Under the pieces are notes generated by a model. It was given only the letters and a program-made list of their open reading frames with translations, was not told where the DNA came from and ran no database searches. Positions 6,277-64,000 of a DNA stretch of 64,000 nt are shown in pieces (positions within the stretch are counted from its first letter, which is position 1; each line of letters opens with the position of its first letter). Both the position numbers and the translations under genes were made by a program. The DNA lies in assembly GCF_014645195.1 (NCBI RefSeq), contig NZ_BMLK01000011.1:1-64000 (forward strand). Reading direction: 5' to 3'. The DNA is from Novosphingobium indicum (GTDB lineage: Bacteria > Pseudomonadota > Alphaproteobacteria > Sphingomonadales > Sphingomonadaceae).

Positions 6277-6292
6277 CCCATCCGTGGATAGG
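6277..6292. promoter_or_regulatory. shared 16-bp operator, copy 1 (CCCAT-N6-ATAGG)
   Basis: Reads CCCATCCGTGGATAGG; the dyad extends by symmetric A/T-flanked bases (ACCCaTCC-GT-GGATAGGGT). Centre is 74 bp before the membrane operon start (6210) and 112 bp before the SnoaL start (6397), so it could serve either direction. Confidence 0.55.
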
Positions 6293-8660: not shown

Positions 8661-8676
8661 CCTACCCTTCTATAGG
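8661..8676. promoter_or_regulatory. shared 16-bp operator, copy 3 (CCTAC-N6-ATAGG, both halves perfect)
   Basis: Reads CCTACCCTTCTATAGG, centred 57 bp before the SDR start at 8726. A TTGACT hexamer follows at 8683. The right part also reads TTCTATAGG, resembling the GntR-linked palindromes. Confidence 0.65.
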
Positions 8677-9717: not shown

Positions 9718-9733
9718 CCTATCCTAATATAGG
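9718..9733. promoter_or_regulatory. shared 16-bp operator, copy 4 (CCTAT-N6-ATAGG, perfect)
   Basis: Reads CCTATCCTAATATAGG, a perfect pair of 5-bp arms. Centre is 131 bp before the Rieske oxygenase start, further out than in most copies, so a long 5' leader or a different promoter geometry is implied. Confidence 0.65.
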
Positions 9734-13816: not shown

Positions 13817-13832
13817 CCTATCGGGGGGAAGG
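13817..13832. promoter_or_regulatory. shared 16-bp operator, copy 5 (CCTAT-N6-GAAGG)
   Basis: Reads CCTATCGGGGGGAAGG: perfect left half, degenerate right half. Centre is 96 bp before the SDR start (13728). Confidence 0.4.
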
Positions 13833-14006: not shown

Positions 14007-14022
14007 CCTTCCCACGGATAGG
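14007..14022. promoter_or_regulatory. shared 16-bp operator, copy 6 (CCTTC-N6-ATAGG)
   Basis: Reads CCTTCCCACGGATAGG; centre 43 bp before the GntR start at 14058. With copy 5 it gives one site per divergent gene in the 329-bp spacer 13729-14057, which holds no coding sequence. Confidence 0.5.
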
Positions 14023-14057: not shown

Positions 14058-14792
14058 ATGGAATTAGCGCACTCTTCTCGTTTTGAGCCCTCGTGGTCGT
14101 CGTTGGCAGAGGCGTCCGATTTCTGGCCGTTGGGAGCTCACGTCACGCTTCGTCAGGCGGTGGTCAGCCAGTTGCGGGCTAGGATCGTGTCGGGGGTCTT
14201 AGCGCCTGGTACTCTCCTTCCTGAAACCGCGTTAGCGCAGCAACTCAAGGTCAGTGCAACCCCGATACGTGAAGCGATGGCGACGCTGGCTTCGGAGGGG
14301 CTGGTGGAAATCGAGGCGCACCGCCTCAAGCGGGTCGCGCCGCTCGACATGATTGTGACCCGTGATCTCCTCAGGGTGCAGGCTGAATTGTGGCGGCTGG
14401 GTTACCAATGGGGAATGCCGCGGATTTGCCCGGAGCAAGTGTCGCTGCTCGACGAGGCAATCACCCGCTATCGGGCGGCGCTGGCGTCGGGCGAGCATAT
14501 GGCGGCGATTTTCGCCGGGCTCGATTTCCATACCGTGTTCATCATGGCGTCGGACAATCGCGAGTTGCTACGATCCACGCTGGACCGGCGCGGGCTGATC
14601 GCTCGCTTCATCTTTCTTCACGGCATCCAGATGGTTTCCTCGATCGGTTTGTCGCAGCACGAGGCGATCCTCGCGGCATTCAAGGCTGATGATCATGCCG
14701 GGGTCCTCGCGTGTCTCGACAGGATGTCCGCGCGGCTGCTCACGCTGTGTGATCGCAACGAGCAATCAGCTACTTTTATCAGTGAGGTATAG
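14058..14792 (+). CDS. GntR-family (FCD) transcriptional regulator
   Basis: 244 aa. The winged helix-turn-helix is recognisable from LRQAVVSQLRARIVSG through LPETALAQQLKVSATPIREAM to ASEGLVEI (about residues 32-95), followed by an all-helical FCD effector domain with the usual His/Asp-rich helices. FCD regulators usually repress catabolic operons until a carboxylate ligand binds. The ATG at 14058 has no ribosome-binding site and touches a palindrome; a TTG a few codons on is a possible alternative. It is followed after 2 bp by the acyl-CoA dehydrogenase and P450 genes and has a distant paralogue at 43116. Confidence 0.8.
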   Translation: MELAHSSRFEPSWSSLAEASDFWPLGAHVTLRQAVVSQLRARIVSGVLAPGTLLPETALAQQLKVSATPIREAMATLASEGLVEIEAHRLKRVAPLDMIVTRDLLRVQAELWRLGYQWGMPRICPEQVSLLDEAITRYRAALASGEHMAAIFAGLDFHTVFIMASDNRELLRSTLDRRGLIARFIFLHGIQMVSSIGLSQHEAILAAFKADDHAGVLACLDRMSARLLTLCDRNEQSATFISEV

Positions 14793-20711: not shown

Positions 20712-21344
20712 TCATCCTTTCTTGTGATCGGTTTGCGAGTTGGCGATCTGCAGGGCCCATTCGGAAAGCCGGTCAGGCGTGCTGTTCCAGATCGCCAGCC
20801 ATTCTGGCGTGGCGGGAATGATGAGGGTACTCAGCTGCATCCGAACCATCGTGTCGCAGAAGGCGTCGCGGTCGATGGACGTGCCGATCAAGGATTCGAA
20901 ATAGTCGAACACCGGGCCGAGGGCGCGCGCGACGGCGGCCTTGTGCCGATTGAAGTGGCTGCGCAGGAATTGGAGATGAAAGGCGGGTTCGACTTCGAAA
21001 ATGCCATCCGGCGAGCGTTCGATCGTAAATCGGCCATAGAACCGCATGACCGCACGAAAGCGTTCGATGGGATCGGCAATGCCTTCTCCCGCTTCGACAA
21101 TACCTCTCTCAAAACTGCTGCAGACAAACTCGCTCACCGCGGCCAGCACGTCTTCCTTGGACGTGAAATAGCGATAGAGGGTGCCGCGCGAAACGCCGCT
21201 GCTTTCGCAGATATCACTCATCGACAGGCGGCGTGTACCCATGCTGCCGATCGCTCGCAAAGTACCGTCAAGAATCTTGAGGACACTGCCTGATTGATCG
21301 GTAGCTACGAGTTGGCTCCAGTCAGGATGCGGCACCATTTTCAT
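20712..21344 (-). CDS. TetR-family transcriptional regulator
   Basis: 210 aa. The N-terminal helix-turn-helix MSDICESSGVSRGTLYRYFTSKEDVLAAV (about residues 42-70) is diagnostic; the C-terminal ligand domain is unassigned. The start overlaps the stop of the upstream SDR by 4 bp, so it is embedded in the catabolic transcript rather than standing alone. A perfect TTGAACA-N5-TGTTCAA palindrome at the head of the same unit (25372-25390) has the size expected of a TetR operator and is a candidate target. Confidence 0.85.
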   Translation of the reverse strand: MKMVPHPDWSQLVATDQSGSVLKILDGTLRAIGSMGTRRLSMSDICESSGVSRGTLYRYFTSKEDVLAAVSEFVCSSFERGIVEAGEGIADPIERFRAVMRFYGRFTIERSPDGIFEVEPAFHLQFLRSHFNRHKAAVARALGPVFDYFESLIGTSIDRDAFCDTMVRMQLSTLIIPATPEWLAIWNSTPDRLSEWALQIANSQTDHKKG

Positions 21345-25328: not shown

Positions 25329-25371
25329 GTCCCTCTCCTTGGGAAATCCGTATCGAGTCGATCTATACATA

Positions 25372-25666: not shown

Positions 25667-25712
25667 CGCTTCGCCGGCAAACCTGTCCGAGGGTAGGTCT
25701 GCCGGCGAAGCG
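25667..25712. other. 46-bp dyad with the shared operator at its centre
   Basis: CGCTTCGCCGGCA (25667-25679) and TGCCGGCGAAGCG (25700-25712) are perfect 13-bp arms. Their axis (25689.5) coincides exactly with that of operator copy 7. It lies 40 bp past the ferredoxin stop, so as RNA it could terminate that transcript (no T-run) while as DNA it carries the operator for the next gene. Confidence 0.65.
25682..25697. promoter_or_regulatory. shared 16-bp operator, copy 7 (CCTGT-N6-GTAGG)
   Basis: Reads CCTGTCCGAGGGTAGG; centre 63 bp before the GTG start at 25753. Confidence 0.55.
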
Positions 25713-29137: not shown

Positions 29138-29153
29138 CCCGTCGAAGGATAGG
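29138..29153. promoter_or_regulatory. shared 16-bp operator, copy 8 (CCCGT-N6-ATAGG)
   Basis: Reads CCCGTCGAAGGATAGG on the plus strand, CCTATCC... towards the gene; centre 61 bp before 29084. The rest of the 201-bp spacer 29085-29285 shows nothing else. Confidence 0.55.
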
Positions 29154-32122: not shown

Positions 32123-32133
32123 GTTCCCTCCTC

Positions 32134-32147
32134 AATTCTATAGAATT
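32134..32147. promoter_or_regulatory. AATTCTATAGAATT perfect 14-bp palindrome
   Basis: Lies just behind the ribosome-binding site of the SnoaL gene at 32122. Same core (TTCTATAGAA) as beside the GntR gene at 14058, and close to the palindrome at 43048. Confidence 0.55.
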
Positions 32148-32176
32148 TTGCTGACATGGTTCATACGCGTCGCCGC

Positions 32177-32192
32177 CTTTCGTTGGGTAGGT
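32177..32192. promoter_or_regulatory. shared 16-bp operator, copy 9 (CCTTT-N6-GTAGG)
   Basis: Reads CCTTTCGTTGGGTAGG. It and copy 11 (46397-46412) differ at one base and share flanking CGC...TGC. Centre 62 bp before 32122 and 92 bp before 32277. Confidence 0.6.
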
Positions 32193-32276
32193 GCAGGTCC
32201 GGCCGCGAGAGAAGATCAGCCAGCAACGCTGCAAGATTTGCTGCGTTCAATTTTGATGATGCAAGGAGAGATAATT

Positions 32277-39045: not shown

Positions 39046-39061
39046 CCTACCAATCTATAGG
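39046..39061. promoter_or_regulatory. shared 16-bp operator, copy 10 (CCTAC-N6-ATAGG, both halves perfect)
   Basis: Reads CCTACCAATCTATAGG; centre 62 bp before 38991. It overlaps the stop codon of the FMN reductase gene (39055-39057), so a new promoter begins inside the run of minus-strand genes. Confidence 0.65.
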
Positions 39062-44614: not shown

Positions 44615-44655
44615 TTGTCTCTCCCTTTGTCGCTGGCCGGTATTGGGCCGGCAGG

Positions 44656-46326: not shown

Positions 46327-46396
46327 CAGTGTCCGCTCCAGAATGGTCGTTCGATTTAGATGCAAGGTTTGTTTGCAGCACGGCCGGTGGCGTGCG

Positions 46397-46412
46397 CCTT
46401 TCGTTGGATAGG
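46397..46412. promoter_or_regulatory. shared 16-bp operator, copy 11 (CCTTT-N6-ATAGG)
   Basis: Reads CCTTTCGTTGGATAGG; nearly identical to copy 9 including flanks. Centre 79 bp before the thiolase start and about 78 bp before the proposed ligase start. Confidence 0.6.
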
Positions 46413-46483
46413 TGCGGAAAGGGCAGGTCACCTCAAGAGCGGATTGGAAATCAAAAATCTGGAAGATCACTGGTCGGGAATTT

Positions 46484-47689: not shown

Positions 47690-47723
47690 GCTCGCAACCG
47701 AAATTAGAGAGCGGGAACATCCC

Positions 47724-51028: not shown

Positions 51029-51894
51029 TGGCAGTGCTGGATATCGATCGGCTACTTTCCTATCCGGTGCCGGAATATCGTGAATCCTACGATTTGCGCG
51101 ACACGATTCTTTATGCTCTCGGGGTCGGGGCAGGGCTATCAGAAAACGTCGATGAGCTTGGTTTCCTTTACGAACGTGACCTCAAGGCGCTGCCGACGAT
51201 GGCATTGGTGCTGGGAACGCCCGGCTTCTGGGCCATGGACCCGAAGACCGGGCTGGACTGGCAGCATATCCTGCACGGGGAAGAATCGCTCGTGCTACAT
51301 CGGCCGATCGAGGCTGAAGGCGAACTGGTCGGTAAAACGTGGGTCGAGGATATCGCCGACAAGGGGCCTGGCAAACCGGTCATGATCCGAAGCCGCCGGA
51401 CGCTTTCGACACTTTCGGGGCTGCTCGTGGCGGAAATGTCTGAATTGTGGGTGGTGCGCGGCGCAGGCGGTTTTGGCGGCGAGCGCAACCTTCCGGGCGA
51501 ACCTTTGCCGCCGCTGCCCGATCTGCCAGCCGACTGCACCATCGAACTCCCGACCAGCCGCAATCAGGCGCTGATCTATCGTTTGTCGGGTGACCGTAAT
51601 CCGCTTCACGCCGATCCCGAACTGGCCAGAAGCGTCGGTTTCGATGGACCGATCCTGCACGGGCTATCGACCATGGGCGTGATCGGCCGGGCACTGATCC
51701 ATATGTGCGCGGAGGGCAATCCCCGTCACCTGCGCTCTATGAAGCTGCGCTTTACGGCGCCAGTCGTGCCCGGGGACGTAATAGCGACCGAGATCTGGGA
51801 CGAAGGGGATGGCTCGGCGCGTTTCCGTGCATCGGTGCCCGCACGCGGTGTGGTCGTCGCGGATTGCGGTATCGCCACGTTCGGCAGGATATGA
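51028..51894 (+). CDS. double hot-dog enoyl-CoA hydratase 2 (MaoC family)
   Basis: 288 aa with two hot-dog domains, like the hydratase-2 part of peroxisomal multifunctional enzyme 2. The catalytic motif is in the C-terminal half: YRLSGDRNPLHADPELARSVGFDGPILHGL. It adds water with R-stereochemistry, complementary to the S-specific FadB-like enzyme of the same operon, which suggests branched or bulky CoA esters. The stop overlaps the membrane protein start (ATGA). Confidence 0.85.
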   Translation: MAVLDIDRLLSYPVPEYRESYDLRDTILYALGVGAGLSENVDELGFLYERDLKALPTMALVLGTPGFWAMDPKTGLDWQHILHGEESLVLHRPIEAEGELVGKTWVEDIADKGPGKPVMIRSRRTLSTLSGLLVAEMSELWVVRGAGGFGGERNLPGEPLPPLPDLPADCTIELPTSRNQALIYRLSGDRNPLHADPELARSVGFDGPILHGLSTMGVIGRALIHMCAEGNPRHLRSMKLRFTAPVVPGDVIATEIWDEGDGSARFRASVPARGVVVADCGIATFGRI

Positions 51895-52655
51895 TTCCCA
51901 GCACAGTCATCGCGGTTCCCGCTCATCCTGCTCCGGCTGCGGCCGGGTTGTCATTCCTGGTCGGCACTTGTGTTATCTTGGCCGCGATCCTGCTGTGGTG
52001 GCTGTTGTCGGGCGAACGTCACCGGCACGGTTATATGCTGCCACTGGTGTTCGCAGGCACGGCGCTCTCCGCCGTTCTGATCGAGCCGATCTTCGACAAT
52101 ACGCTGCTCTACTGGTATCCGCCGGTCAACGATCTTGCGTTTTTCCGTGGCTACGACAGGACGATCCCGTACTACGTGCCGCTGGGCTACGCGTGGTTTT
52201 TCGGCGGTAATGCCTATCTGCTTGCACGGCTGTTCGCGAAAGGGGTCGGCCGGGGACTGGTGTGGCTGCTGTTCGCCGGCACTGTGGCGATCGACTGGCT
52301 GGCAGTCTCGATTTGTGAGTGGCTTGACCTCAGTGCCTTTTATGGCCCGCAGCCGTTCCATCTTGTCGGTTCGCCGCTGTGGTTCTCGTTTTGCGACGCC
52401 ACCGGCGCTTTCGTACTGGCGGCAGCCTTGCGCCTGTTCGGCAATCACCTGACCGGCGAGCGGCAGGCGTGGTTGCTTGTCCTGCCCACGTTCACGTACG
52501 GTGGAACGCTGGGCTCGGTGACGGCGCCTGTCTCGCTGGCGCTCAATTCCGGCTGGTCCGCGCCGTGGGTCTGGGCAGGAGGCGCAGCTACGATGGTGCT
52601 GTGCATGATGGCGATACACGTGATCGCCGGGTTCGCCTCTCGGGAGCGCGGCTGA
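51891..52655 (+). CDS. multi-helix membrane protein, possibly AveC-like
   Basis: 254 aa with about seven hydrophobic helices. A conserved-looking loop contains EPIFDNTLLYWYPP followed by IPYYVPLGYAWFFGG, reminiscent of AveC-type proteins, named for a spirocyclase of avermectin biosynthesis; the homology is from memory and weak. It overlaps the hydratase by 4 bp, so it belongs to the beta-oxidation operon and may handle a hydrophobic intermediate. Confidence 0.5.
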   Translation: MIPSTVIAVPAHPAPAAAGLSFLVGTCVILAAILLWWLLSGERHRHGYMLPLVFAGTALSAVLIEPIFDNTLLYWYPPVNDLAFFRGYDRTIPYYVPLGYAWFFGGNAYLLARLFAKGVGRGLVWLLFAGTVAIDWLAVSICEWLDLSAFYGPQPFHLVGSPLWFSFCDATGAFVLAAALRLFGNHLTGERQAWLLVLPTFTYGGTLGSVTAPVSLALNSGWSAPWVWAGGAATMVLCMMAIHVIAGFASRERG

Positions 52656-52716
52656 GACCATCAACGCGCATACGTTGACACCAGGATCAAGCTTCACCGG
52701 ACCACGCGTGCGCGGA

Positions 52717-53223
52717 TCACGCAGGCCAGCTGGGCGCCCGCTCGTGCATCGCGGAAAAGGCTGGACGCATCGCTTCGGGTACCTGGCCTATGCCGACGCC
52801 GGTGCCGAAGTTGACGCCGCGACGTTCGTAGATCCGCCATCCCGCCGGCGTCCGGCGCAAGCGGTCTTCGTAGCCGCCCACTGCCAGCAGCTCGCTAGGG
52901 CGCAGCGGATCGGCGTCGGCAATGGCGAACCAGTGCCAGGCTAGAACGCGGCTCGCAGCGCGGGCTTCATCACCGGTGACTTCGATCATGAGATTGCTGA
53001 CGTTGTGCGAACAGCCCAGCAGGGCGCCCCGGTAAGCCATGCACTGGGCATGGATCGCCTCGCGCCCGACGGCCAGGGTGGCGCCGAACTCGATACGCCC
53101 GTCCTCCGCGAAGACCTCGTCGGCGACACGGTGGAATTGCAGGGAATCGATCAGGTGCGCGTAGCGGTAAACGCATTCTTCGATGGCGATGCGATCGGCG
53201 ATCGTCTGCAATTCCAGGCTCAT
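52717..53223 (-). CDS. SnoaL-like protein
   Basis: 168 aa NTF2-fold protein with IAIEECVYRYAHLIDSLQFHRVADEVFAEDGRIEF, a GREAIHAQCM middle and WRIYERRGVNFG near the end, same type as at 28641 and 31667. I start at 53223, where GGGAG is about 10 bp upstream; a longer frame to 53343 runs into the SDR. Convergent with the membrane gene; last of the minus-strand trio from 55092. Confidence 0.75.
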   Translation of the reverse strand: MSLELQTIADRIAIEECVYRYAHLIDSLQFHRVADEVFAEDGRIEFGATLAVGREAIHAQCMAYRGALLGCSHNVSNLMIEVTGDEARAASRVLAWHWFAIADADPLRPSELLAVGGYEDRLRRTPAGWRIYERRGVNFGTGVGIGQVPEAMRPAFSAMHERAPSWPA

Positions 53224-53317
53224 GGCAAGTTTACTCCCTGGCGCACAGCAAGTTGGGACATGCAGCCCCATGGCTGCGCCGTTCGCGCGGGTCGGTGCCA
53301 GCCCGCGCACCTTGGTG

Positions 53318-54094
53318 TCAGCTGCAGCCGACGATGCCCCCATCGACCGGGAGCTGTGCTCCGGTTACATAGGCTCCCGCGCGCGAGCACAGGAAGATCA
53401 CGATACCGGCGATGTCCTCGGGCGTGCCCATCCGCTTCATCGGGATGTGTGCCAGCAATGCCGGGTCGACCGTATCCTCGTCCCGCATGTGCGCGGTCAT
53501 TTTGGTTGGGAAGAAGCCAGGGATAACCGCGTTGACAGTGATATTGCGGTCTGCAAGGTCGCCGGCCAGATCCCGGCTCATCATGTGGACTGCGGCCTTG
53601 CTGGCAGCGTAGCTGTAGGCGTGAAGCTTCTCGGTCCTCATGCCCGCGACTGATCCGATGTTGATGACACGCGCCGGGTCGAATGCCGATCCGGCGGCTG
53701 CGAGTTCAGGCAGCAGTTCGCGGATAATCGTGAAGGGCGTCTGGACATTAACGGCCATGACGCCGGGCCAGGCTTTGTCCGGGAAGCTGTCGATCTCGCC
53801 GCCCCAGGTCTTGCCGGCATTGTTGACGAGGATATTGCACTGGCCGACCGCGCCGCGATAGCGGGCGACGAGATCGACTGCCGCCTCGGGAGTGGAAAGA
53901 TCGGCGGGCAGGGCAATGCACTGGCCGAGCGATGCCATCTCTGCTGCTGCCGCCTCGCAGATGTCGGCCTTGCGTGAAGTGATGGCAACCGTGGCGCCAG
54001 CCTTGAGCAGGCCTTCTGCGATCATGCGCCCAAGTCCTTGTGCGCCCCCGGTTACAAGCGCCTTCTTTCCGGCGAGACTGAACAAATCACTCAC
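53318..54094 (-). CDS. short-chain dehydrogenase/reductase
   Basis: 258 aa with TGGAQGLG, VNNAG, Ser in NIGSVAG and YAASK; similar in length and layout to 39606-40382. Start overlaps the MDR stop by 4 bp. FabG-like tail GAYVTGAQLPVDGG. Confidence 0.85.
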   Translation of the reverse strand: MSDLFSLAGKKALVTGGAQGLGRMIAEGLLKAGATVAITSRKADICEAAAAEMASLGQCIALPADLSTPEAAVDLVARYRGAVGQCNILVNNAGKTWGGEIDSFPDKAWPGVMAVNVQTPFTIIRELLPELAAAGSAFDPARVINIGSVAGMRTEKLHAYSYAASKAAVHMMSRDLAGDLADRNITVNAVIPGFFPTKMTAHMRDEDTVDPALLAHIPMKRMGTPEDIAGIVIFLCSRAGAYVTGAQLPVDGGIVGCS

Positions 54095-55092
54095 ATCGAC
54101 ACCACGACTTTGCCGAACTTGTGGCTGTCACGCAGGTGGAGCAGGGCTTCCTTGGCCTGGTCGAGCGGATATGTCGCCTCGATCACCGGCTTGATCTTGT
54201 GTGTGTCGGCGAAGGCCAGCATGTCCTGGAAATCCTGCGGATCGCCAACCTGGCTGCCCACGATGCTGGCGCTTTTCAGGAAAATGTCAGTCGCGTTGAA
54301 TTTCACTTCGTTGCCGGCGGTCGAACCATAGATTACGATCCGCGCGCCCGGATTGATAGCGCGCACGTAATTGGCGAAGCTGGGCGAGGGGGCACCGTCG
54401 AGTACCACGTCGATGCCTCCGGTCAGCTTGCCCACCTGCTTGCGCCAGTCGGGATCGGTATAGAGCAGGCCGCCCTTTGCCCCCATGGCAACGGCACGGT
54501 CGATCACGTCCTGGCTTTCACCGGTAACATAGACGTTAGCGCGTTTGGCCACCGCGAAAGCGAGACCGAACGTTGCCACGCCGCCGCCCACGCCGCTGAT
54601 GAGCAGCGTTTCGCCGGCCTGGAGTTGGCCTTTGAACATGAGCGCTCGCCAGGAGGTCAGTGCCGTGAGCGGCATCGCGCCTGCTTCCTCGAAGGTCATG
54701 AACGCCGGCTTGGGCGCGAGGTTTTCCGCCGGAACGCAGATATATTCGGCGATGGTACCAGCAAACGGCATGCCCAGCAGGCCGAAGTCCGCCGCTGGTG
54801 CGTGACGGTTCGGCCCCCAGTTTCGGGCCGGATACAAAACGACTTCGTCGCCTTCGCCTACGCCCGAAACACCATCTCCGATCATGTCCACGACACCAGC
54901 ACCGTCGCAGCCCAGCGAGACCGGCACCACCATGCCGGGATACTGGCCGTGGGTGATGAACAACTCGCGGTGATTTACTGAGGCGGCTTTGACCGCAACG
55001 CGGACTTCACCAGGGCCCGGAACCGGCGTCTCGATATCCTTTACGACGACGGAATCCGGTCCATCGGTCTTTTCGAGATAGAGAGCCTTCAT
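54091..55092 (-). CDS. zinc-independent MDR oxidoreductase
   Basis: 333 aa quinone-oxidoreductase/crotonyl-reductase-like protein: LGCDGAGVVDMIGDGVSGV, the cofactor loop ISGVGGGVATFGLAF near residue 170 and VLDGAPSPSFANYVRAI. It should reduce a double bond with NADPH. The ATG at 55092 follows AAAGG. First gene of the minus-strand unit with an SDR and a SnoaL-like protein; it faces the regulator gene. Confidence 0.8.
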   Translation of the reverse strand: MKALYLEKTDGPDSVVVKDIETPVPGPGEVRVAVKAASVNHRELFITHGQYPGMVVPVSLGCDGAGVVDMIGDGVSGVGEGDEVVLYPARNWGPNRHAPAADFGLLGMPFAGTIAEYICVPAENLAPKPAFMTFEEAGAMPLTALTSWRALMFKGQLQAGETLLISGVGGGVATFGLAFAVAKRANVYVTGESQDVIDRAVAMGAKGGLLYTDPDWRKQVGKLTGGIDVVLDGAPSPSFANYVRAINPGARIVIYGSTAGNEVKFNATDIFLKSASIVGSQVGDPQDFQDMLAFADTHKIKPVIEATYPLDQAKEALLHLRDSHKFGKVVVSM

Positions 55093-55217
55093 GGTCAACC
55101 TTTCCTATTTTGCCGTCCGTTCGGCTTTTGCCGTTGATTCTGGGGCAACGATTCGACGCCGTGGCGCGGATCGTTCCCTCTCTCTCCTGCGTGGACAATG
55201 TCGCTGTGATTTGATGA

Positions 55218-55233
55218 CCTATCTGCCGATAGG
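55218..55233. promoter_or_regulatory. shared 16-bp operator, copy 12 (CCTAT-N6-ATAGG, perfect)
   Basis: Reads CCTATCTGCCGATAGG. Centre 97 bp before the LuxR-type regulator start and 133 bp before the MDR start. The best-matched copy beside the only large regulator in the window. Confidence 0.7.
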
Positions 55234-55322
55234 GAAGAAGGATTGCATTTATGATTTCATTGCCCGAAATATATTTCAGTTGAAAGAACGAATCGCACCA
55301 AGCGATTCGCGGGAGAGACACA

Positions 55323-58004
55323 ATGAGCGTTGTTCCAACGACTATCCTGCCGCCGCGCGTGACGCGCACGCTTGTGCATCGACCGGCCTTAGAGGCTTTG
55401 ACAGACAAGATCGCCCAGTCGCGGCTGACGGCAGTTTCCGCACCTGCAGGCAGCGGAAAAACCACCGCCATGCTCTTTTGGGCTGATCTCCTGAAAGAGC
55501 AAGGAAGGCCTGTCCTGTGGTTGGCGGCGCGGGCCGGGATCGAGAGTAAACGCTCGTTTCTGATGGCGCTCCAGGCTGCGGGCGTTGCCGCCGGTCTTGG
55601 GTGGGATGGCCTGAACGAGGACGCGGCCGACATGGACTGGCTCCACATGATCGCCTCTAACGAGACGGCGAGGCCGGTCATCGTTGTTGATGACGCGCAA
55701 CTGCTGGGCGAACCTGTCCTGGACTTCCTCGGCCAGCTTTCAGCCAGCGCGCGCGATGCCTTGACGATCATCGTCGCGTCCCGAGGAACCATCGGGCTAC
55801 CGCTTGCGCGCATGCGTGCGCTCGGGTTCCTGGTCGAGGTCGGCAATGGGGAACTCGCCTTCACGCTTGCTGAAGCGACCGAACTGGTATCGCGCAGCGT
55901 CGGCGGACCGATTGATGCTCAGACCTTGCAGGACATCGTTCGCGACACGCAGGGCTGGGTGTCGGGTATTGTCATGGCCTGTGATCTTTACCGCCGAGAG
56001 GGCATGGGCAAGAGTAATATGCGGCTTACCGGACTGCGTCCGGAGTTCGCAGAATATTTTCACGAGGAGGTCGTCGGGCAACAGACCGACGAGGTCCGCC
56101 GTTTCCTCGTCGACACGTCGATTCTTGACGAATTGACGCCGTCTGCCTGCGCTGCGGTCACCGGCGACGAAAATGCGCGCAAGATGCTGGATCATGTGTT
56201 CCGTCAGGGGCTGTTCCTTCATGCCATCGATCAGGAGCATAGCCGGTATTCCTATCATCGGCTGTTTCGCGAGATGGTGCTGGGCCGGCTGATGGACAGG
56301 GCGCCCGCTCGTGCCGCCGTCATGCACCGCCGCGCGAGTGAGCATTTTGCCGCAGAAGGCCAGCTTCCGAGAGCCATCGAACATGCGCGGCTAAGCGGCA
56401 GCCAGGACTTCCTGGCGGAGCAACTCGACCGCCTTGCGGACCCGCTTACGTATTCCGGATATCTCTATCGTATAGATGAACTGGGAGCCGAATTGCCGTG
56501 GTCGGTGCTGTCGGGTCATCCCAATTTGCTGCTCGCCCTGGCATGGCGCCGTATCAGGCAATTGTCCTTTGCTTCGGCAGAACGTCTGATCGCTGCCGCA
56601 AGCGCGGCTTGCGGAACACAGGTCGCATGCGGCGTGTTGTCCGACCATGAGGCGGCAGAGTTTGCGCTTACCATCCGTCATCGTCAGGTCATGCTGCACG
56701 CGGCGCGCGATGATATGGTCAGCGTCGAGGCTGAAGCGGAGGCGCTGCTGAGCGAACTGGGCGATGGCCATGCCTACCTGAGTTGCACACTGCTGGCCCA
56801 GCTGATGTCAGCGCGACGGGAACTCTACCATTTCGGCGACATGCTGAAGCTGGAGGCGGAAACCCGCGTGGCGCTCTCCCGGCCGGGCTCGGATTTTGCC
56901 TCGATCGCTCTCAAAGCATCCGTCGCGCCTACCCTTATGGCGCAGGGCAAGACGCAGATGGCGCGGCGCTTTCTGGATGAGGCATTTGCTCTGGCCCGCC
57001 AGCTTCATGGCGATGGCTCGGGCGTTGCAGCCCTTCCGGCGCTGCCGCTGGCCGAGATGCTCTACGATGCCAACGACATCGACGCCGCCGCCGAACTGAC
57101 TGAAAGCTATCTGCCGGTGGTCCGGCAGTGGGCCTTCGCTGACCAGATGGCCTCGGGCTTTCTCGTTACGGCCCGGCTTCGCGCGGCACGCGGCGATCTT
57201 GCCGGGGCCCTGTCCATTCTGAACGATGCCCACCTCGTCGCGATCGAATGCGGGCTCCTGAGGCTGAGGTCGATCGTGGTGGCGGAAGAGGTGCGGTTGC
57301 TGGTGAAGGCCGGACATGTCGAGGAGGCCGAGCGGCATTTCCTCGCAGGCGATCCGCAGATCGATGGTGAACCGGTCCCGACCTTGCGTCCGACCCGGAG
57401 GAACGAAAGCATCGCGATTGCGTGGCTACGGATCGAGATGCAGCACCACCGGCTTGGGCGTGCGCGTAAGGTCGCACACCGCTGGCTTGAGTTCGTGAAG
57501 CGCAGCGGGGCCATTCGCTCGGCCGTGACATTCGAACTGCTCCTTGCGGAAATCGCGGTGCTTCAGGGGAACCGTTCGGAAGCGCGCCGGGCCGTTCGTG
57601 CGGCCGTGGAAATGGCAGAGCCGGCGGGCTGGGTCCGCATCTTCATTGATGAGGGTGAGGTGATCTCGACCCTGCTGACCGAGGCGTATGCCAATGGTCC
57701 GGACCTGGAAACCCCGGCAGATCGGTTCGCTGTCAAGCTTGTGTCGCTGATGCGGGGCGGCCCCAGGATCGAAAGCGACGAGACCGAGGATGACGAATTC
57801 GGGCTCACCGGCCGACTTGCCAATCGGGAAGTGGATATTCTCACCATGGTCGGTGGCGGACTGCGCAATCGTGAGATCGGCGACAGGCTGGGCCTGACCG
57901 AGGGCACGGTCAAATGGTACATGCAGCAGATATACGACAAGTTGGGCGTGCGCCGACGGCCGCAGGCAGTTCAGCGTGCGCGGCAACTGGGCATCCTTCC
58001 CTGA
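55323..58004 (+). CDS. LuxR-family STAND (MalT/LAL-type) transcriptional activator
   Basis: 893 aa. N-terminal NTPase with Walker A PAGSGKTT (41-48) and Walker B VIVVDDAQ (119-126), a large middle of helical repeats (about 380-800, TPR-like), and a C-terminal LuxR helix-turn-helix (about 830-890) with LANREVDILTMVGGGLRNREIG and LTEGTVKWYMQQIYDKLGV. Proteins of this build (MalT, AlkS) are ATP-dependent activators that sense a small molecule. NarL/LuxR-type domains bind 7-2-7 dyads, matching the operator family described here, so I infer this protein is its activator. GGGAGAGAC precedes the ATG. Confidence 0.9.
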   Translation: MSVVPTTILPPRVTRTLVHRPALEALTDKIAQSRLTAVSAPAGSGKTTAMLFWADLLKEQGRPVLWLAARAGIESKRSFLMALQAAGVAAGLGWDGLNEDAADMDWLHMIASNETARPVIVVDDAQLLGEPVLDFLGQLSASARDALTIIVASRGTIGLPLARMRALGFLVEVGNGELAFTLAEATELVSRSVGGPIDAQTLQDIVRDTQGWVSGIVMACDLYRREGMGKSNMRLTGLRPEFAEYFHEEVVGQQTDEVRRFLVDTSILDELTPSACAAVTGDENARKMLDHVFRQGLFLHAIDQEHSRYSYHRLFREMVLGRLMDRAPARAAVMHRRASEHFAAEGQLPRAIEHARLSGSQDFLAEQLDRLADPLTYSGYLYRIDELGAELPWSVLSGHPNLLLALAWRRIRQLSFASAERLIAAASAACGTQVACGVLSDHEAAEFALTIRHRQVMLHAARDDMVSVEAEAEALLSELGDGHAYLSCTLLAQLMSARRELYHFGDMLKLEAETRVALSRPGSDFASIALKASVAPTLMAQGKTQMARRFLDEAFALARQLHGDGSGVAALPALPLAEMLYDANDIDAAAELTESYLPVVRQWAFADQMASGFLVTARLRAARGDLAGALSILNDAHLVAIECGLLRLRSIVVAEEVRLLVKAGHVEEAERHFLAGDPQIDGEPVPTLRPTRRNESIAIAWLRIEMQHHRLGRARKVAHRWLEFVKRSGAIRSAVTFELLLAEIAVLQGNRSEARRAVRAAVEMAEPAGWVRIFIDEGEVISTLLTEAYANGPDLETPADRFAVKLVSLMRGGPRIESDETEDDEFGLTGRLANREVDILTMVGGGLRNREIGDRLGLTEGTVKWYMQQIYDKLGVRRRPQAVQRARQLGILP

Positions 58005-58018
58005 CGCTTCGGCGGCCT

Positions 58019-58034
58019 CCTACCGAAGGATAGA
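58019..58034. promoter_or_regulatory. shared 16-bp operator, copy 13 (CCTAC-N6-ATAGA)
   Basis: Reads CCTACCGAAGGATAGA; centre 59 bp before the BKACE start. CGCTTC (58005-58010) and GAAGCG (58043-58048) flank it on the same axis (58026.5), echoing the larger dyad at copy 7. Confidence 0.6.
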
Positions 58035-58085
58035 TTACTCTGGAAGCGCCACTTGCAAAGCGCGCTTGGCGCGAAAGGAAAAGTC

Positions 58086-59015
58086 ATGGCCAAACGAAAA
58101 GTAATTATCAGCTGCGCTGTCACCGGCGCGATCCATACGCCGTCGATGTCTCCCTATCTGCCCATCACGGCGGAAGACATAGCCGAATCGGCGATCGGGG
58201 CGGCAGAGGCGGGGGCCGCGATCATCCATCTTCATGCACGCAATCCGGTTGACGGTCGGCCGGACCAGAACCCGGATCTGTTCGAACCCTTCCTCAAGGT
58301 TATCAAGCAGCGCAGCGACGCGGTGCTCAATCTGACCACCGGCGGCCATCCGTCCATGCCGGTCGAAGAGCGCATCCGCCCGGCCCGGACCTTCGCACCA
58401 GAAGTGGCCAGCCTCAACATGGGGACGATGGGCTTTGGACTTTTCCCGATGCTGGAGCGCTACAAGGATTTCAAGCATGACTGGGAGCCGGCCGCGCTGG
58501 AAGCTTCGCGCGATCTTGTGTTCAAGAACACGTATGCTGACATTGAACATCTGCTGACGACGCTTTCGCCGCTCGGCACGCGGTTCGAATTTGAATGCTA
58601 CGACACCAGCCATCTTTACAATCTCAAGTATTTCCTTGATCGCGGCCTTGTGAAGGCGCCCCTGTTCATCCAGACTTGCTTTGGGATTCTGGGAGGTATC
58701 GGCAGCCATCCCGATGATATCATGCACATGAAGCGGACGGCCGACCGGCTGTTTGGCGATCAGTATCAATGGTCGGTTCTGGGCGCTGGTGCGCGGCAGA
58801 TGAGCATTGTCGCGATGGCGGCTTCTATGGGAGGCAACATTCGCGTGGGTCTGGAGGATTCGCTCTGGGGCGGCCCGGGCCGCCTGGCTGAGACGAACGC
58901 CGAGCAGGTTCGTACCGCACGTCAGATCATCGAAGGCATGGGGCTGGAAGCGGCTAACGCAGATGAGGCACGCGAAATGCTCGACCTCAAGGGCGGCGAC
59001 CGGACGAACATCTGA
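58086..59015 (+). CDS. beta-keto acid cleavage enzyme (BKACE, DUF849)
   Basis: 309 aa TIM-barrel protein. The opening VIISCAVTGAIHTPSMSPYLPITAEDIAESAIGAAEAGAAIIHLHARN carries the zinc ligand pair H48-x-H50; NLTTGG near residue 86 and FGILGGIGSHPDD later are family hallmarks. BKACEs condense a beta-keto acid with acetyl-CoA to give acetoacetate and a new CoA ester. It begins a four-ORF operon. Confidence 0.85.
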   Translation: MAKRKVIISCAVTGAIHTPSMSPYLPITAEDIAESAIGAAEAGAAIIHLHARNPVDGRPDQNPDLFEPFLKVIKQRSDAVLNLTTGGHPSMPVEERIRPARTFAPEVASLNMGTMGFGLFPMLERYKDFKHDWEPAALEASRDLVFKNTYADIEHLLTTLSPLGTRFEFECYDTSHLYNLKYFLDRGLVKAPLFIQTCFGILGGIGSHPDDIMHMKRTADRLFGDQYQWSVLGAGARQMSIVAMAASMGGNIRVGLEDSLWGGPGRLAETNAEQVRTARQIIEGMGLEAANADEAREMLDLKGGDRTNI

Positions 59016-60109
59016 TGACGGAAGGCAAGGGGCCGCTCGCCGGCATCCGTATTGTCGAAATAGACGCAATTGGACCGGTTCCCCTGGCAGCCATGTTGCT
59101 TGCGGACTTGGGGGCCGACATCGTGCGGGTTGCCCGTCCGGCAACCGCAGGGGGCGGGGATTGGGAAGATGTCGGCGGCGACATCCTGCATCGTAGCCGT
59201 TCAGTCACGCACCTCGACCTCAAGAATGACCGGCATCGCGCGCTGCTGCTCGACCTGATCGAGCGGGCCGATGGCTTGATCGAGGGCTATCGCCCGGGGG
59301 TGATGGAGCGCCTTGGTGTGGGGCCCGAGGTGTGCCTTGCCCGCAATCCGCGGCTGGTCTTCGGCCGGATGACGGGATGGGGGCAGTCCGGGCCGCTGGC
59401 CCTGCGTGCCGGGCACGACATCAATTATCTCTCGATTACCGGAGCCCTGCACGCAATGGGGGCGAAGGGTGAGCCGCCACCGGTCCCGCTCAACCTTGTC
59501 GGGGACTATGGCGGTGGTTCGATGTTCCTGATCATGGGCATGCTCAGCGCGCTCCTTTCCGCGAAGATGACCGGAAAGGGACAGGTAGTCGATGTCGCTA
59601 TTACGGATGGCGTCGTCTCGTTGATGAGCCTGTTCTATGCATGGCTACCCAAGGGCCTGTGGAGCGATGAACCCGCCACCAACCTGCTTGACGGCGCGGC
59701 TCCTTTCTATCGCTGCTATACTTGCGCCGATGGGCGGCATGTCGCGGTTGGATCTCTTGAGCCCAAGTTTTTCGCACAAATGGTTGCGGGGCTGGGGCTT
59801 GCCGATCGAGAGTACGATCAGAACGACCGGGCAGGATGGCCGGTTATGCAGGCAGACTTCGCGGCGGCTTTCGCGTCACGAACCCGCGACGAATGGGCTG
59901 CGGTGTTCGAAGCGACCGATGCCTGTGTCACGCCGGTGCTTTCGATGGAAGAGGCACCTGTGCATCCGCACAACCACGAGCGCGCCATATTCGTCGACCG
60001 GAACGCCACGAAGCAGCCTGCTCCGGCGCCGCGATTGTCGGTGACACCGGGAACCGTAGAGGAGCCGCAAGTGCTCGACATCTCGGATGCAATCGAATCG
60101 TGGTCATGA
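59015..60109 (+). CDS. alpha-methylacyl-CoA racemase-like family III CoA-transferase fold protein
   Basis: 364 aa CaiB/BaiF-fold protein. The racemase residues are present: H134 in AGHDINYLSITGALHAMG and D164 in LVGDYGGGSMFL, 30 residues apart as in mycobacterial MCR, together with GKGQVVDVAITDG. AMACR enzymes epimerise 2-methylacyl-CoA so that side-chain beta-oxidation can proceed. This is a strong hint that the substrate carries an alpha-methyl branch. The start overlaps the BKACE stop (TGATG). Confidence 0.8.
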   Translation: MTEGKGPLAGIRIVEIDAIGPVPLAAMLLADLGADIVRVARPATAGGGDWEDVGGDILHRSRSVTHLDLKNDRHRALLLDLIERADGLIEGYRPGVMERLGVGPEVCLARNPRLVFGRMTGWGQSGPLALRAGHDINYLSITGALHAMGAKGEPPPVPLNLVGDYGGGSMFLIMGMLSALLSAKMTGKGQVVDVAITDGVVSLMSLFYAWLPKGLWSDEPATNLLDGAAPFYRCYTCADGRHVAVGSLEPKFFAQMVAGLGLADREYDQNDRAGWPVMQADFAAAFASRTRDEWAAVFEATDACVTPVLSMEEAPVHPHNHERAIFVDRNATKQPAPAPRLSVTPGTVEEPQVLDISDAIESWS

Positions 60110-60128
60110 TGACCAGGAGGGCCATTTA

Positions 60129-60296
60129 ATGGCACGCGACCTTCTCCCGGCCATATGCTTGAGGGCGCCCAGCGGAAACAGGTCGGAATGGCCCCGCGGC
60201 GGCGCCCGGCCGCTCAGGGCGAAGCGGACGATCGGCAGCGAGCCGTGTGCCTACTGCTTTGCGTTCACGGAGTGCTGGCGGGCGGCGCAGTGGTGA
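60129..60296 (+). CDS. small basic ORF between racemase and CofC-like genes
   Basis: 55 aa, with AGGAGG 8 bp before its ATG (60116-60121) and a stop that overlaps the proposed GTG of the next gene (GTGA). It is Arg-rich with a C-terminal EPCAYCFAFTEC segment, and GC at third positions is high, as in real genes here. No family recognised. It could be a small protein, a leader peptide for coupled translation, or a relic. Confidence 0.4.
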   Translation: MARDLLPAICLRAPSGNRSEWPRGGARPLRAKRTIGSEPCAYCFAFTECWRAAQW

Positions 60297-60859
60297 GTTG
60301 GACAGCCGTCGTCCCGCTCAAGGCGGCTGCGGCCCGCAAGACCCGCCTCGCTTCGGTGCTTGCGCCTGAAGCGCGCGTGGTGTTGACCGACCGGATGGCG
60401 CGGCATGTGATTGCGGTGCTCCGACAGGTGCGATCGATTGAGCGGGTGCTGTTGTTGTCGCCCGTTCCACTGAGCGCCTGTGACGCGGAGTGGATCGAAG
60501 ACCGGGGCGCGGGGCTCAATGCCGAGTTGGCGCGGGTTTACGCTGGCTTGGATGGCGCCTTGCTGATCGTGCACGCCGACCTGCCGCTGCTTGCGACCCC
60601 TGACATTTCAGCGCTACTCGCGGCAGCTGAAAACAGCGGCAGGGCGATCGCCTCCGACCGCCACGGACGAGGTACCAATGCCATCGCTCTGTTCGACAGG
60701 CAGCCGATCGTGTTCGCCTTCGGCCCCGGCAGTTTTCTAAATCATGCCGCGCAAGGCACCGCAACCCGGGTGCGTCGGTCCGGACTGTCCCTGGATGTCG
60801 ATTTCCCGGATGATTTGGCCGTCGCCTTGGCGACACAGGAATTTCTTCAGGCGCATTAA
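60293..60859 (+). CDS. CofC-like nucleotidyltransferase (F420 biosynthesis type)
   Basis: 188 aa. Features of CofC/FbiD guanylyltransferases: TAVVPLKAAAARKTRLASVL at the N-terminus (phosphate loop with Lys/Arg), VHADLPLLATPDISALL for the metal site, ASDRHGRGTNAIAL and FAFGPGSFLNHA. CofC couples PEP or phospholactate to GTP in coenzyme F420 biosynthesis. I start at GTG 60293, which places the family's N-terminus and is coupled to the preceding small ORF; a longer frame from 60155 exists. The two luciferase-like genes in the window are potential F420 users. Confidence 0.75.
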   Translation: MSWTAVVPLKAAAARKTRLASVLAPEARVVLTDRMARHVIAVLRQVRSIERVLLLSPVPLSACDAEWIEDRGAGLNAELARVYAGLDGALLIVHADLPLLATPDISALLAAAENSGRAIASDRHGRGTNAIALFDRQPIVFAFGPGSFLNHAAQGTATRVRRSGLSLDVDFPDDLAVALATQEFLQAH

Positions 60860-61200
60860 CAATACTGGCTCGTGACGAAGAACGGGTGTTTCGCGCCTGA
60901 GTGCGCGTTCAAAACAACGACGCTTGCTGCTGGCAGCACTCGCTTCCTGATGCAGGGCATTTGCAGCAACTCACTGAAATTTGGCTCATATGTGGCAAAA
61001 ATGTCGCAATGCGCGAGCCTTATCTAGGGTTGTCCGCAGCGGGAACTGTCTTTGGCAACAAGAATCCTTCGCATTGCCAATCCTTTGCCTATCCGTCGAC
61101 AGGTGGAGGCGAGGCATTTGGATCGTCTTCGTGCGCCACCATCCGTACCTGGCCAGAGATCAGGACGGCTTCCGAGGCCTGGTCCTTATGAGGGGAACCC
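60860..61200. other. 341-bp spacer before the TonB receptor
   Basis: No supported gene. It contains operator copy 14 at 61088-61103 and the receptor's promoter and leader. Confidence 0.5.
61088..61103. promoter_or_regulatory. shared 16-bp operator, copy 14 (CCTAT-N6-ACAGG)
   Basis: Reads CCTATCCGTCGACAGG; centre 105 bp before the TonB receptor start. Confidence 0.5.
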
Positions 61201-63576
61201 ATGAATAATCGAATTTTGAAATGCGTCCTGTTGTCGACGGCAGTGTTCATTGCGGCACCCGTTGCCGCACAGGACACAGGTGCCGAGGTGAGCGATGCCG
61301 ATGCGGCGAGCTCGGGCGATATTGTTGTCACTGCCCGCCGCCGCGAGGAGAGGTTGCAGGACGTACCTGTTTCGATTTCGGCCTTCTCGCCCGAAGCATT
61401 GCAGCGCAGTACTGTTCAGACGGTCAGCGACATCAAGACGATCGCACCGGGATTCACGTTTTCGTCCGAAGGCGGCAAGGACAACGTCTCGTTGACCCTG
61501 CGCGGTATCGGCCAGTTGCCGCTGGGCGAAGTGACGCCGGGCGTGGTCATCTATCTCAACGATACGCCGCTTCCGTCCGTCGGGTCGAACGTTCCGACTT
61601 ACGACATTAGCAGTATTCAGGTGCTCAAGGGGCCGCAGGGCACGCTGTTCGGCCGCAACACACTCGGCGGCGCGGTCGTCATTGGCAGTCAGAAGCCCAC
61701 CTACTATTTCGAGGGTTATGTCGAGGGGACTTACGGTCGGTTCGACTACCGCGAAGTGCAGGGCGCGGTGAATATCCCGATCATCGAGGACAAGGTGGCG
61801 TTTCGTGCGGCCGGCCAGATTCGGCGCCAGGACCCTCGCACCGTCGCATTCGATGGCGGGCCGGGTTTTGACGACGTGCATCAGGATGCCTTTCGCCTGT
61901 CGCTCCTCCTTGAACCGTTCGAAGGGTTCAAGAGCACGACGGTTTACGAATATTTCAAGGCCGATGAACTGGCCGGCGGGCTCTACTTGCTGCGCCAGAA
62001 CTATCCTTTCGCGGCGCTCGGTCTGGGGGTAGTTGATCCGCAGGTGGCGGCCGCACTGGAAACGCAGCGGGCTAACCGGCGCGGCTCCTTCGACGGGGGG
62101 ATCGACGGAGGTCTTTCCTATCGCAAGACCACCGCGATCACCAACGATACATCGTACACTTTCGGCGCGCTGACGCTGCGGAATATCTTTGGCTACCGTA
62201 AGAACTACAGCGACCAGTTGATCAATAGCGGCGGCCTGCCGTTGCTGCAGATCCCGACCGGCCTGGCTGATCCGGCAACCGTGCCGTTCACGCTGTTCAA
62301 TGCCTCGTCCGCCCTTGATCGTCAGTACCTGACCAATGAGACACAGTTGCTAGGGGAGTTCAGCGGCTTCAACTTCATCGTTGGTGTCTTTTACAACAAC
62401 GACAAGCCCGACGGCCCGAGCGGTTCGCAGTTCACCGCCTTTTCGGTCGGCAGCGTTCCCGCACCGGCGGTGACGGCCCACGTACGCAACAAGAACTGGG
62501 CTGTTTACGGTCAGATCGGGTACGAGATCACCGAAAAGCTGAAACTGAACCTGGGCGCGCGTTACAGCTGGGACAAGGTTTCGGCATGTGGCGGAACTAT
62601 TGGCAGCACCTACGTTGACGAGTCCACTTGCCTCGACGTTGCCGCCACGGGCCTGATTGACGGCGTCGGCACGGTATCCAACAAGGGCGAGGAGCCGAGC
62701 TGGACCATTGGCCTGGACTATAAGGCCAATCCGGACTGGCTGCTCTATATCGTCTCACGTCGCGGCTACCGCGGTGCGAACGTCAATACGCCGTTGTTCG
62801 AGACACCTTATACGACTGGCGGCACCGATCCCGCCTGCACTGCAACGGGCGGCGTCTGCCCGGACTTGCGTCCGTTCCAGAAGACCGGCGAGGAGACGAT
62901 CACCGACGTTGAGATCGGTTCGAAGTACAATTACCGGGTGGGGGCGGCGCGCGGCCTGCTGAACATCGCGGCGTATTACAGCAAGTACAAGAACGCGCTG
63001 CAGTTCCTCAATACTCAGACCACTGTACCCAATGGAACGCCCGATTCCCCCACCAACGGGTCTCTGGCGGTCAACGCGGCGGACTTGAGGATATGGGGCG
63101 TCGAACTTGAAGCTTCGATCAGCCCGGTGCGCAGCCTGACCGTGGGCTTCAACGCGGCTTACACCAACGTGAAGGTTGAAAAGCTGGCACTGCCCGCCGT
63201 TCTGCCCTCGACGATCGAGCTGGGGCCGGATCAGGTCAACAAGTATTCGCCCAGCTTTTCCGGCACCGCGAGCATCAGTTGGACCTTGCCGGTTCGCCCG
63301 GTGGATGGCGATCTCATCTTTAATGCCGACGTGTTCATGACCGATGACTTCGGCGGCCAGAACGGTGAAAAACTACCGGGTTACGAACTTGCGAATGCCC
63401 GCCTTGACTGGCGCAGCATTGCCGGAACCGGTCTCGATCTGGGCGTTTTCGTGAAAAACGTCTTCGACGTGGATTACTACTCCGCATCAAGCGTCCTGTT
63501 GTCCTCCTTCCCGACCAATTCTGTCTATGTCGGCGAACCGCGGACCTGGGGCGTGTCGGCCAAATATTCCTTCTGA
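61201..63576 (+). CDS. TonB-dependent outer-membrane receptor
   Basis: 791 aa. Signal peptide (about residues 1-23, cut after PVAAQ), a TonB-box-like stretch DIVVTARRREERLQDVPVSIS, then a plug domain with LKGPQGTLFGRNTLGG near 140 and a 22-strand barrel ending in the terminal aromatic KYSF. This plug style is common in sphingomonads, where such receptors import hydrophobic catabolic substrates as well as siderophores. GAGGGGAACCC precedes the ATG. Position under operator copy 14 suggests it takes up the pathway substrate. Confidence 0.9.
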   Translation: MNNRILKCVLLSTAVFIAAPVAAQDTGAEVSDADAASSGDIVVTARRREERLQDVPVSISAFSPEALQRSTVQTVSDIKTIAPGFTFSSEGGKDNVSLTLRGIGQLPLGEVTPGVVIYLNDTPLPSVGSNVPTYDISSIQVLKGPQGTLFGRNTLGGAVVIGSQKPTYYFEGYVEGTYGRFDYREVQGAVNIPIIEDKVAFRAAGQIRRQDPRTVAFDGGPGFDDVHQDAFRLSLLLEPFEGFKSTTVYEYFKADELAGGLYLLRQNYPFAALGLGVVDPQVAAALETQRANRRGSFDGGIDGGLSYRKTTAITNDTSYTFGALTLRNIFGYRKNYSDQLINSGGLPLLQIPTGLADPATVPFTLFNASSALDRQYLTNETQLLGEFSGFNFIVGVFYNNDKPDGPSGSQFTAFSVGSVPAPAVTAHVRNKNWAVYGQIGYEITEKLKLNLGARYSWDKVSACGGTIGSTYVDESTCLDVAATGLIDGVGTVSNKGEEPSWTIGLDYKANPDWLLYIVSRRGYRGANVNTPLFETPYTTGGTDPACTATGGVCPDLRPFQKTGEETITDVEIGSKYNYRVGAARGLLNIAAYYSKYKNALQFLNTQTTVPNGTPDSPTNGSLAVNAADLRIWGVELEASISPVRSLTVGFNAAYTNVKVEKLALPAVLPSTIELGPDQVNKYSPSFSGTASISWTLPVRPVDGDLIFNADVFMTDDFGGQNGEKLPGYELANARLDWRSIAGTGLDLGVFVKNVFDVDYYSASSVLLSSFPTNSVYVGEPRTWGVSAKYSF

Positions 63577-63584
63577 TATCGGTG

Positions 63585-63616
63585 AAAGGCCAGGGCGCAT
63601 ATTCGCCCTGGCCTTT
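63585..63616. terminator. perfect hairpin terminator after the TonB receptor
   Basis: AAAGGCCAGGGCG / CGCCCTGGCCTTT, 13 perfect pairs with a 6-nt loop, 8 bp past the stop; the 3' arm itself ends in TTT. Confidence 0.85.
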
Positions 63617-63684
63617 CCATGGATGGGTTCGGGAGAACTGGCCAAGCCTTATTGCCGGAGCGGAAAGGAACGCGAGGAGGAGAC

Positions 63685-64000
63685 ATGAAACTCGGTATTT
63701 GCAGCATGTGGGGCGACAGCCTTGATGTCTTTCGCAACGAGGTCCGGCTGGCGTCGGACCTGGGTTTCGACCTCGTGACAGTCGGTGATTCTCCTGCGGG
63801 GTGGCATGAGCTGCATGTCTCGCTGACGCTTGCGGCCCTCGAGGCGCCTCGCGCGAGGCTGGCGCCGCTGGTGACGTCACCGTTCATGCGCCATCCGATC
63901 GTGACCACTGCGGCGCTTTGCAGTATCGACGACCTTTCCGGCGGGCGTGTTGCGCTGGGTCTGGCGACCGGCGGCAGCACGGTCATGGCCATTGGCAGGC
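63685..64000 (+). CDS. luciferase-like (LLM) oxidoreductase, 5' part
   Basis: The first 105 codons, open to the right edge. MKLGICSMWGDSLDVFRNEV, VTVGDSPAGWHELHVSLTL and the closing DDLSGGRVALGLATGG are typical of Mer/F420-dependent LLM enzymes (the SGGRVALGLATGG block matches the NGRVVLGLGSS block of the 2508 gene). GAGGAGGAGAC precedes the ATG. With the CofC-like gene upstream it points to F420-dependent chemistry, although FMN use is not excluded. Confidence 0.8.
   Translation, partial: MKLGICSMWGDSLDVFRNEVRLASDLGFDLVTVGDSPAGWHELHVSLTLAALEAPRARLAPLVTSPFMRHPIVTTAALCSIDDLSGGRVALGLATGGSTVMAIGR

Follow-up and report, generated by a model that had tools for sequence, protein, structure and literature searches.

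The first 64,000 nucleotides of contig NZ_BMLK01000011.1 of Novosphingobium indicum (assembly GCF_014645195.1; hereafter the window) carry a large catabolic gene cluster, with genes for Rieske oxygenases, a cytochrome P450, acyl-CoA dehydrogenases, a thiolase, BKACE, a CoA-transferase, a pyrroloquinoline quinone (PQQ) dehydrogenase and a TonB receptor. Towards its right end lies a gene for a large regulator of the STAND/MalT-like LuxR type, and 5' of that gene is a perfect dyad, CCTATC-TGCC-GATAGG. We consider it likely that this protein reads CCTATC-N4-GATAGG (N4, a spacer of 4 nt) and activates both itself and the surrounding catabolic operons. The regulator gene and its promoter contain the following features:

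55323..58004, + strand: STAND/MalT-like LuxR regulator, 893 aa, proposed operator reader (Pfam TPR_MalT and GerE; PDB match; site upstream in relatives)
57816..57980, + strand: GerE/NarL-type helix-turn-helix (HTH), residues 832-886, with helix TEGTVKWYMQQIYDKL, loop GVRRR and a C-terminal helix (PF00196, AlphaFold2, Foldseek)
55218..55233, + strand: perfect operator at the regulator's promoter; the divergent alcohol dehydrogenase (ADH) gene 54091-55098 lies about 120 bp away
55243..55248, + strand: predicted -35 element TTGCAT, starting 9 nt past the dyad (from sequence; same spacing in relatives)

The initial annotation placed a perfect operator 97 bp before the regulator start, and this holds: the centre of the dyad at 55218-55233 is about 97 bp 5' of the ATG at 55323, with 89 nt separating the dyad end from the ATG.

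An operator array across the catabolic cluster

The window contains 15 CCTATC-N4-GATAGG sites with two or fewer mismatches, and 11 of these are intergenic (4963 bases of the window, according to our own gene list). In addition to the perfect site, the copies include:

6277..6292, + strand: one mismatch, about 100 bp 5' of the SnoaL-like gene 6394-6786; falls within called open reading frame (ORF) 4901-6337 (- strand), the start of which may be too early
8661..8676, + strand: two mismatches, precedes the short-chain dehydrogenase/reductase (SDR) gene 8696-9553
9718..9733, + strand: one mismatch, precedes the Rieske oxygenase gene 9857-11071
13817..13832, + strand: two mismatches, precedes the SDR gene 12892-13728 (- strand)
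14007..14022, + strand: two mismatches, precedes the GntR gene 14058-14792
25682..25697, + strand: two mismatches, between the Rieske gene 23943-25379 (- strand) and the flavin mononucleotide (FMN) oxidoreductase gene 25753-26904 (+ strand)
29138..29153, + strand: two mismatches, precedes the SnoaL gene 28641-29084 (- strand)
32176..32191, + strand: two mismatches, near the PQQ dehydrogenase/SnoaL divergent region; falls within called ORF 32121-32801, which may likewise start too early
39046..39061, + strand: two mismatches, precedes the acyl-CoA dehydrogenase gene 37828-38991 (- strand)
46397..46412, + strand: one mismatch (CCTTTCGTTGGATAGG), between the AMP-ligase gene 44656-46340 (- strand) and the thiolase gene 46487-47689 (+ strand); several relatives have sites at the corresponding place
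58019..58034, + strand: two mismatches, precedes the BKACE, CoA-transferase and CofC genes (58087 onwards); several relatives have one-mismatch sites at the corresponding place
61088..61103, + strand: one mismatch, precedes the TonB-dependent receptor gene 61201-63576; its counterpart on plasmid pSA2 (see below) is perfect
63612..63627, + strand: operator-like, two mismatches, weak, 3' of the TonB receptor gene

This array exceeds chance. Control palindromes made by permuting the half-sites (59 in all) gave on average 1.69 sites in total and 0.20 intergenic sites, with maxima of 8 and 1. When the spacer was set to 0-3 or 5-10, the true half-sites gave no intergenic site in the window at any length. 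At three or fewer mismatches the window has 32 sites against a dinucleotide-shuffle mean of 17.45, a count that none of 100 shuffles reached. The whole N. indicum genome has 15 sites with one mismatch or fewer, compared with two for the reversed pattern; six are on NZ_BMLK01000011.1, one of them (74103) beyond the window. Eight of the nine on other contigs lie within automatically called ORFs, and the regulon therefore appears to be confined to the cluster.

The initial annotation described the sites as 7-2-7 dyads, the NarL-type geometry of complementary heptamers around a 2-nt spacer. This description does not stand, because positions 7 and 10 are non-complementary in a logo of 49 sites, and the conserved element is 6-4-6. 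A search of Rfam with positions 44000-64000 found no match at the gathering threshold, and blastn of the 136 bp around the 55218 site found none among plasmids.

The regulator and the covariation of its HTH with the operator

By its domain matches, the 893-residue protein is a STAND/LAL (MalT-type) LuxR regulator. An N-terminal P-loop STAND NTPase is indicated by nSTAND_NTPase5 and AAA matches at approximately residues 24-156, and residues 9-407 match the MalT structure 8bob (6.7e-35, PDB sequence match); a MalT-like TPR region (PF17874, residues 534-788, 2.1e-26) and the C-terminal GerE/LuxR HTH (PF00196, residues 832-886, 2e-13) follow. It is not a MalT equivalog, scoring 249.8 bits against an NCBIfam cut-off of 537 with the model matching nearly end to end. 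The last 78 residues are modeled by AlphaFold2 as four helices with a mean predicted local distance difference test score of 81.7, with the recognition helix at model residues 45-59, a loop at 60-63, and the last helix at 64-73; Foldseek relates this model to DegU, LiaR-DNA, GerE, and NarL-DNA. In the related HTH of RcsB, the account in PMC5829831 has the recognition helix contacting bases and the dimer contact formed by the last helix together with the helix 7-8 loop.

The operator is widely retained at the regulator gene. We examined 56 homolog loci (29-85% identity) that were chosen through protein peptides, independently of the site, three of which (L033, L038, L047) are without usable upstream sequence. 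A site with one mismatch or fewer is present upstream of the regulator at 44 of the 56 loci, and among the 54 regulators with upstream sequence, that of the window included, 49 have one with two or fewer mismatches. All 42 perfect dyads in these loci have a spacer of 4, as do 99 of 109 at one mismatch or fewer. Even betaproteobacterial homologs at 29-30% identity (Burkholderia and Paraburkholderia; L049, L052, L055, L056) retain a perfect site, and a Caballeronia plasmid has two perfect sites, one 5' of its regulator and the other about 340 bp 5' of a dioxygenase gene that adjoins maleylacetate reductase and flavin reductase genes. The divergent neighbor varies while the site is retained: it is the ADH gene in the nearest clade, an SDR gene in L010, and a different acyl-CoA dehydrogenase gene, with a product 28-32% identical to that of the window, in, for example, L014-L018, L023, L026-L028, and L031. 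Two loci (L139, L147) have tandem operators 26 bp apart 5' of the regulator, of which one is perfect and the other has a mismatch.

The site also covaries with the regulator's own HTH. For this comparison we used 119 regulators, or 81 after dropping those at least 90% identical, and scored 400 bp of upstream sequence at one mismatch or fewer; the set omits L033, L038, and L047 (cut or partial), L143 and L144 (partial matches), and loci representing the same gene or a near copy (L057, L058, L069, L070, L081, L135, L146, L148, L150, L151). Non-redundant homologs with helix VKWY(M/L)QQ and loop GVRRR have the N4 site in 36 of 41 cases (34/39 with Met, 2/2 with Leu), and those with other helices or loops in none of 36. 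One member of the latter group (L045) has a single N8 one-mismatch match, and helix IKTHIRN, taken here as MalT-type, occurs in five non-redundant homologs, none of which has a CCTATC dyad.

Among 298 genomes of the family, that of N. indicum included, six have a regulator homolog of at least 50% identity. A perfect N4 site is present in four of these six genomes and 19 of the remaining 292 (Fisher P 3.7e-4), and five of the six perfect sites in the four genomes lie directly 5' of a regulator gene. At least 10 one-mismatch sites are present in 5/6 and 9/292, respectively (P 6e-7); both thresholds (at least 50% identity, at least 10 sites) were picked after inspection of the data. The case named as refuting in the initial annotation, genomes with the operators but not the regulator, is not seen clearly above background: 19/292 genomes without a homolog of at least 50% identity have a perfect site, and the reversed control pattern matches 13 of the 298. 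This count of 13, and that of nine genomes with at least 10 sites, were made by eye. In the six genomes whose homologs are all diverged, 3-8 sites were counted, compared with 3-6 for the control. Genome G237 encodes three regulator paralogs (78, 61, and 54% identity) and has the highest one-mismatch count of the 298 (22, control 2); the perfect N4 site is present at two paralogs and absent at the third, and cross-talk among them is possible.

Not every regulator conforms, and several cases weigh against the assignment. Genome G049, with a homolog of at least 50% identity, has six one-mismatch sites against four for the control. Five of the 39 regulators with identical helix and loop have no site at one mismatch or fewer: L040 and L044 retain sites with two mismatches, L030 and L034 no more than half-sites, and L051 (Hydrogenophaga, 31% identity) has none. 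The single regulator with IKWYMQQ and GVRRR (L037; 0/1 at one mismatch or fewer) has a two-mismatch site only. Where VKWY(M/L)QQ is combined with loops GVNRR (four regulators), GTRRR (one), or GTRPR (one), none of the six has the site, so that the helix is not sufficient by itself to predict the operator. In L030 and L041, two direct GATAGG copies 20 bp apart, with CCTATC 26 bp further, lie 55-102 bp 5' of the regulator match, which could represent a different half-site arrangement instead of the dyad.

Promoter geometry and the likely reader

In 38 of 48 aligned regulator sites a TTG lies exactly 9 nt past the dyad, followed by an A/T-richer -10-like region, and this spacing suggests that the regulator positively autoregulates. 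The dyad would be centered near -52, a predicted position more readily reconciled with activation than with occlusion of RNA polymerase. We envisage that the C-terminal NarL/GerE-type HTH would bind CCTATC-N4-GATAGG directly, probably with two HTH domains acting together, one on each hexamer, and that the STAND/TPR sensor part would bind a pathway compound as the presumed inducer. The regulator would then most likely activate, rather than repress, its own transcription in a positive feedback, and the surrounding catabolic operons would be activated likewise. The sequence evidence bearing on this scheme consists of the site array, its conservation, the covariation with helix and loop, and the promoter spacing. 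The central proposal of the initial annotation, a STAND-LuxR protein that probably reads the operator and regulates its own gene, is well supported by phylogenetic footprinting and HTH covariation.

A precedent is available in AlkS of Pseudomonas putida GPo1, a member of the same LuxR/MalT family that activates a catabolic operon. AlkS is described as recognizing an inverted repeat 5' of PalkB and PalkS2; its operators stand before the target promoter and before its own gene, with positive feedback (PMC8784404). An inverted-repeat operator likewise stands 5' of the regulator's own gene and of target operons in the window, and the regulator appears to work like AlkS; the pathway is different, there are 15 sites across 64 kb, and the likeness is one of arrangement. 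SCO6993 of Streptomyces coelicolor, an ATP-binding LuxR-type LAL regulator, is also reported to bind palindromes in target promoters and its own; it differs in repressing antibiotic regulators, and the authors of that account were unable to derive a consensus for its sites (PMC9628970). With these two examples, the view in the initial annotation that a symmetric site under a STAND regulator would be unusual does not hold up. Escherichia coli MalT shares the domain layout of the window regulator, but the MalT box is given as a short non-palindromic motif, unlike the dyad here (PMC9628970).

That the STAND regulator binds the site yet represses, or autoregulates negatively, seems to us fairly unlikely. 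SCO6993 is described as a repressor that binds its own promoter (PMC9628970), and target promoters (33 contexts) have no fixed -35 spacing, which fits repression and leaves their mode of control less clear. However, the dyad at the regulator's own promoter ends 9 nt 5' of the -35 in 38/48 instead of covering the -35 or -10, and both MalT (PMC9628970) and AlkS (PMC8784404) are presented as activators.

The 893-residue protein was initially taken for the sole large activator in the window; two further regulators are also present:

20712..21344, - strand: TetR regulator, rival reader, judged unlikely
14058..14792, + strand: GntR/FCD regulator, rejected as reader, possible target

Palindromes are typical TetR operators, and the palindromic site suits a protein of this type. 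If the TetR protein read the palindrome as a repressor, the STAND regulator would be merely one of its targets. All six genomes with a regulator homolog of at least 50% identity, and none of the six with diverged homologs, encode a TetR ortholog (E <= 1e-20). This pattern counts against the STAND protein as reader, and co-occurrence alone therefore does not decide against TetR. The main argument against it is that the site covaries with the STAND protein's own HTH; in addition, the site sits upstream of the -35. A search covering flanks of up to 10 kb around the Burkholderia, Paraburkholderia, and Caballeronia loci with perfect sites gave no TetR homolog at E <= 1e-20 and 60% coverage (in the window the TetR gene is 34 kb from the regulator). 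Of five TetR neighborhoods (5.1-6.5 kb), one contains a site with two or fewer mismatches, at a distance of 4.4 kb, and the other four contain none. We regard the TetR reading as improbable.

Footprinting cannot reveal which protein binds, and a regulator outside the cluster could in principle read the sites, with the STAND gene a conserved target. Such a reader would need to follow the STAND gene through Alpha- and Betaproteobacteria and among unrelated neighbors while tracking its helix and loop, and genomes without the STAND gene have site counts near background; we consider this very unlikely. The GntR/FCD protein has an operator copy 5' of its own gene (14007), as do two of three orthologs about 130 bp 5' of the aligned region (one and two mismatches), but with no ortholog (E <= 1e-20) in two of six genomes that keep the regulator and its upstream site (G156, G290), we rejected it as a reader that is scarcely credible.

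Spacing in a sister clade and neighboring genes

A small sister clade suggests that the distance between the half-sites can shift. All three regulators with loop GIRNR have the half-sites upstream, with spacers of 6, 5, and 6. Genome G076 has four perfect N6 sites within about 17 kb and one N5 site 5' of the regulator, in surroundings (SDRs, an FMN oxidoreductase, and a TonB receptor) that look catabolic as well; with three perfect N6 sites around the regulator in G193 and one in G138, the clade has eight perfect N6 sites and one perfect N5, and a single N6 site (G076 241722) lies within a called ORF. These regions also have a few one-mismatch matches (spacers 1, 5, 6, and 7) and one perfect match at spacer 11, overlapping an N6 site, but no spacer-4 match. 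Perfect N6 dyads occur in 22 of the 298 family genomes, with more than two copies in G076 (four) and G193 (three) only.

Somewhat more probable than not, in our view, is a model in which the recognition helix VKWY(M/L)QQ would set the hexamer CCTATC and changes outside it would set the spacing, insulating related regulons from each other by geometry and not by sequence. The determinants would be the loop (GVRRR versus GIRNR) and the neighboring C-terminal helix, with a spacing of 4 in most regulators and 6 (once 5) in the sister clade. Against such a code, its basis is three regulators, two of them in one genus, and the link between loop and spacing is for this reason a correlation on one clade split and not proof. 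Met versus Leu in the helix does not account for the altered spacing, since VKWYLQQ with GVRRR keeps N4 (L140, L084). ComA of Bacillus subtilis, which has the same kind of tetrahelical HTH, is reported to use inverted hexamers with a 4-nt spacer, binding spacer 4 in vitro, tolerating 5, and rejecting 6 (PMC4797271), compared with 6 in the GIRNR clade; ComA is a NarL-family protein rather than a STAND protein, and its hexamer differs.

Several neighboring features were also noted. Coenzyme F420 genes lie inside the cluster (CofC, CofGH, NpdG, and an F420-dependent luciferase-like monooxygenase (LLM) oxidoreductase, all above NCBIfam cut-offs), at window positions 60155-60859 and at 683-4852 of locus L071 (contig positions 64683-68852). 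A 32.7-kb stretch of N. resinovorum plasmid pSA2 (L081; NZ_CP017077.1 322847-355537) includes much of the right half of the window, with the regulator, four operator sites, and F420 genes. The plasmid is typed as conjugative, and the regulon may therefore spread horizontally. Beside the cluster, positions 3523-4578 encode an S-adenosylmethionine-dependent carboxyl methyltransferase (PF03492, 3.9e-32), from a family that is mainly found in plants.

Our literature search (open-licence papers, largely titles and the starts of abstracts) found no description of this operator-reader pair or regulator family. With a likely reader and its operator assigned for this family of regulators of catabolic clusters, their regulons could become readable from sequence, and inducible promoters could be built. 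A constant half-site and recognition helix with shifting spacing would also offer a natural example in which operator specificity evolves through geometry.

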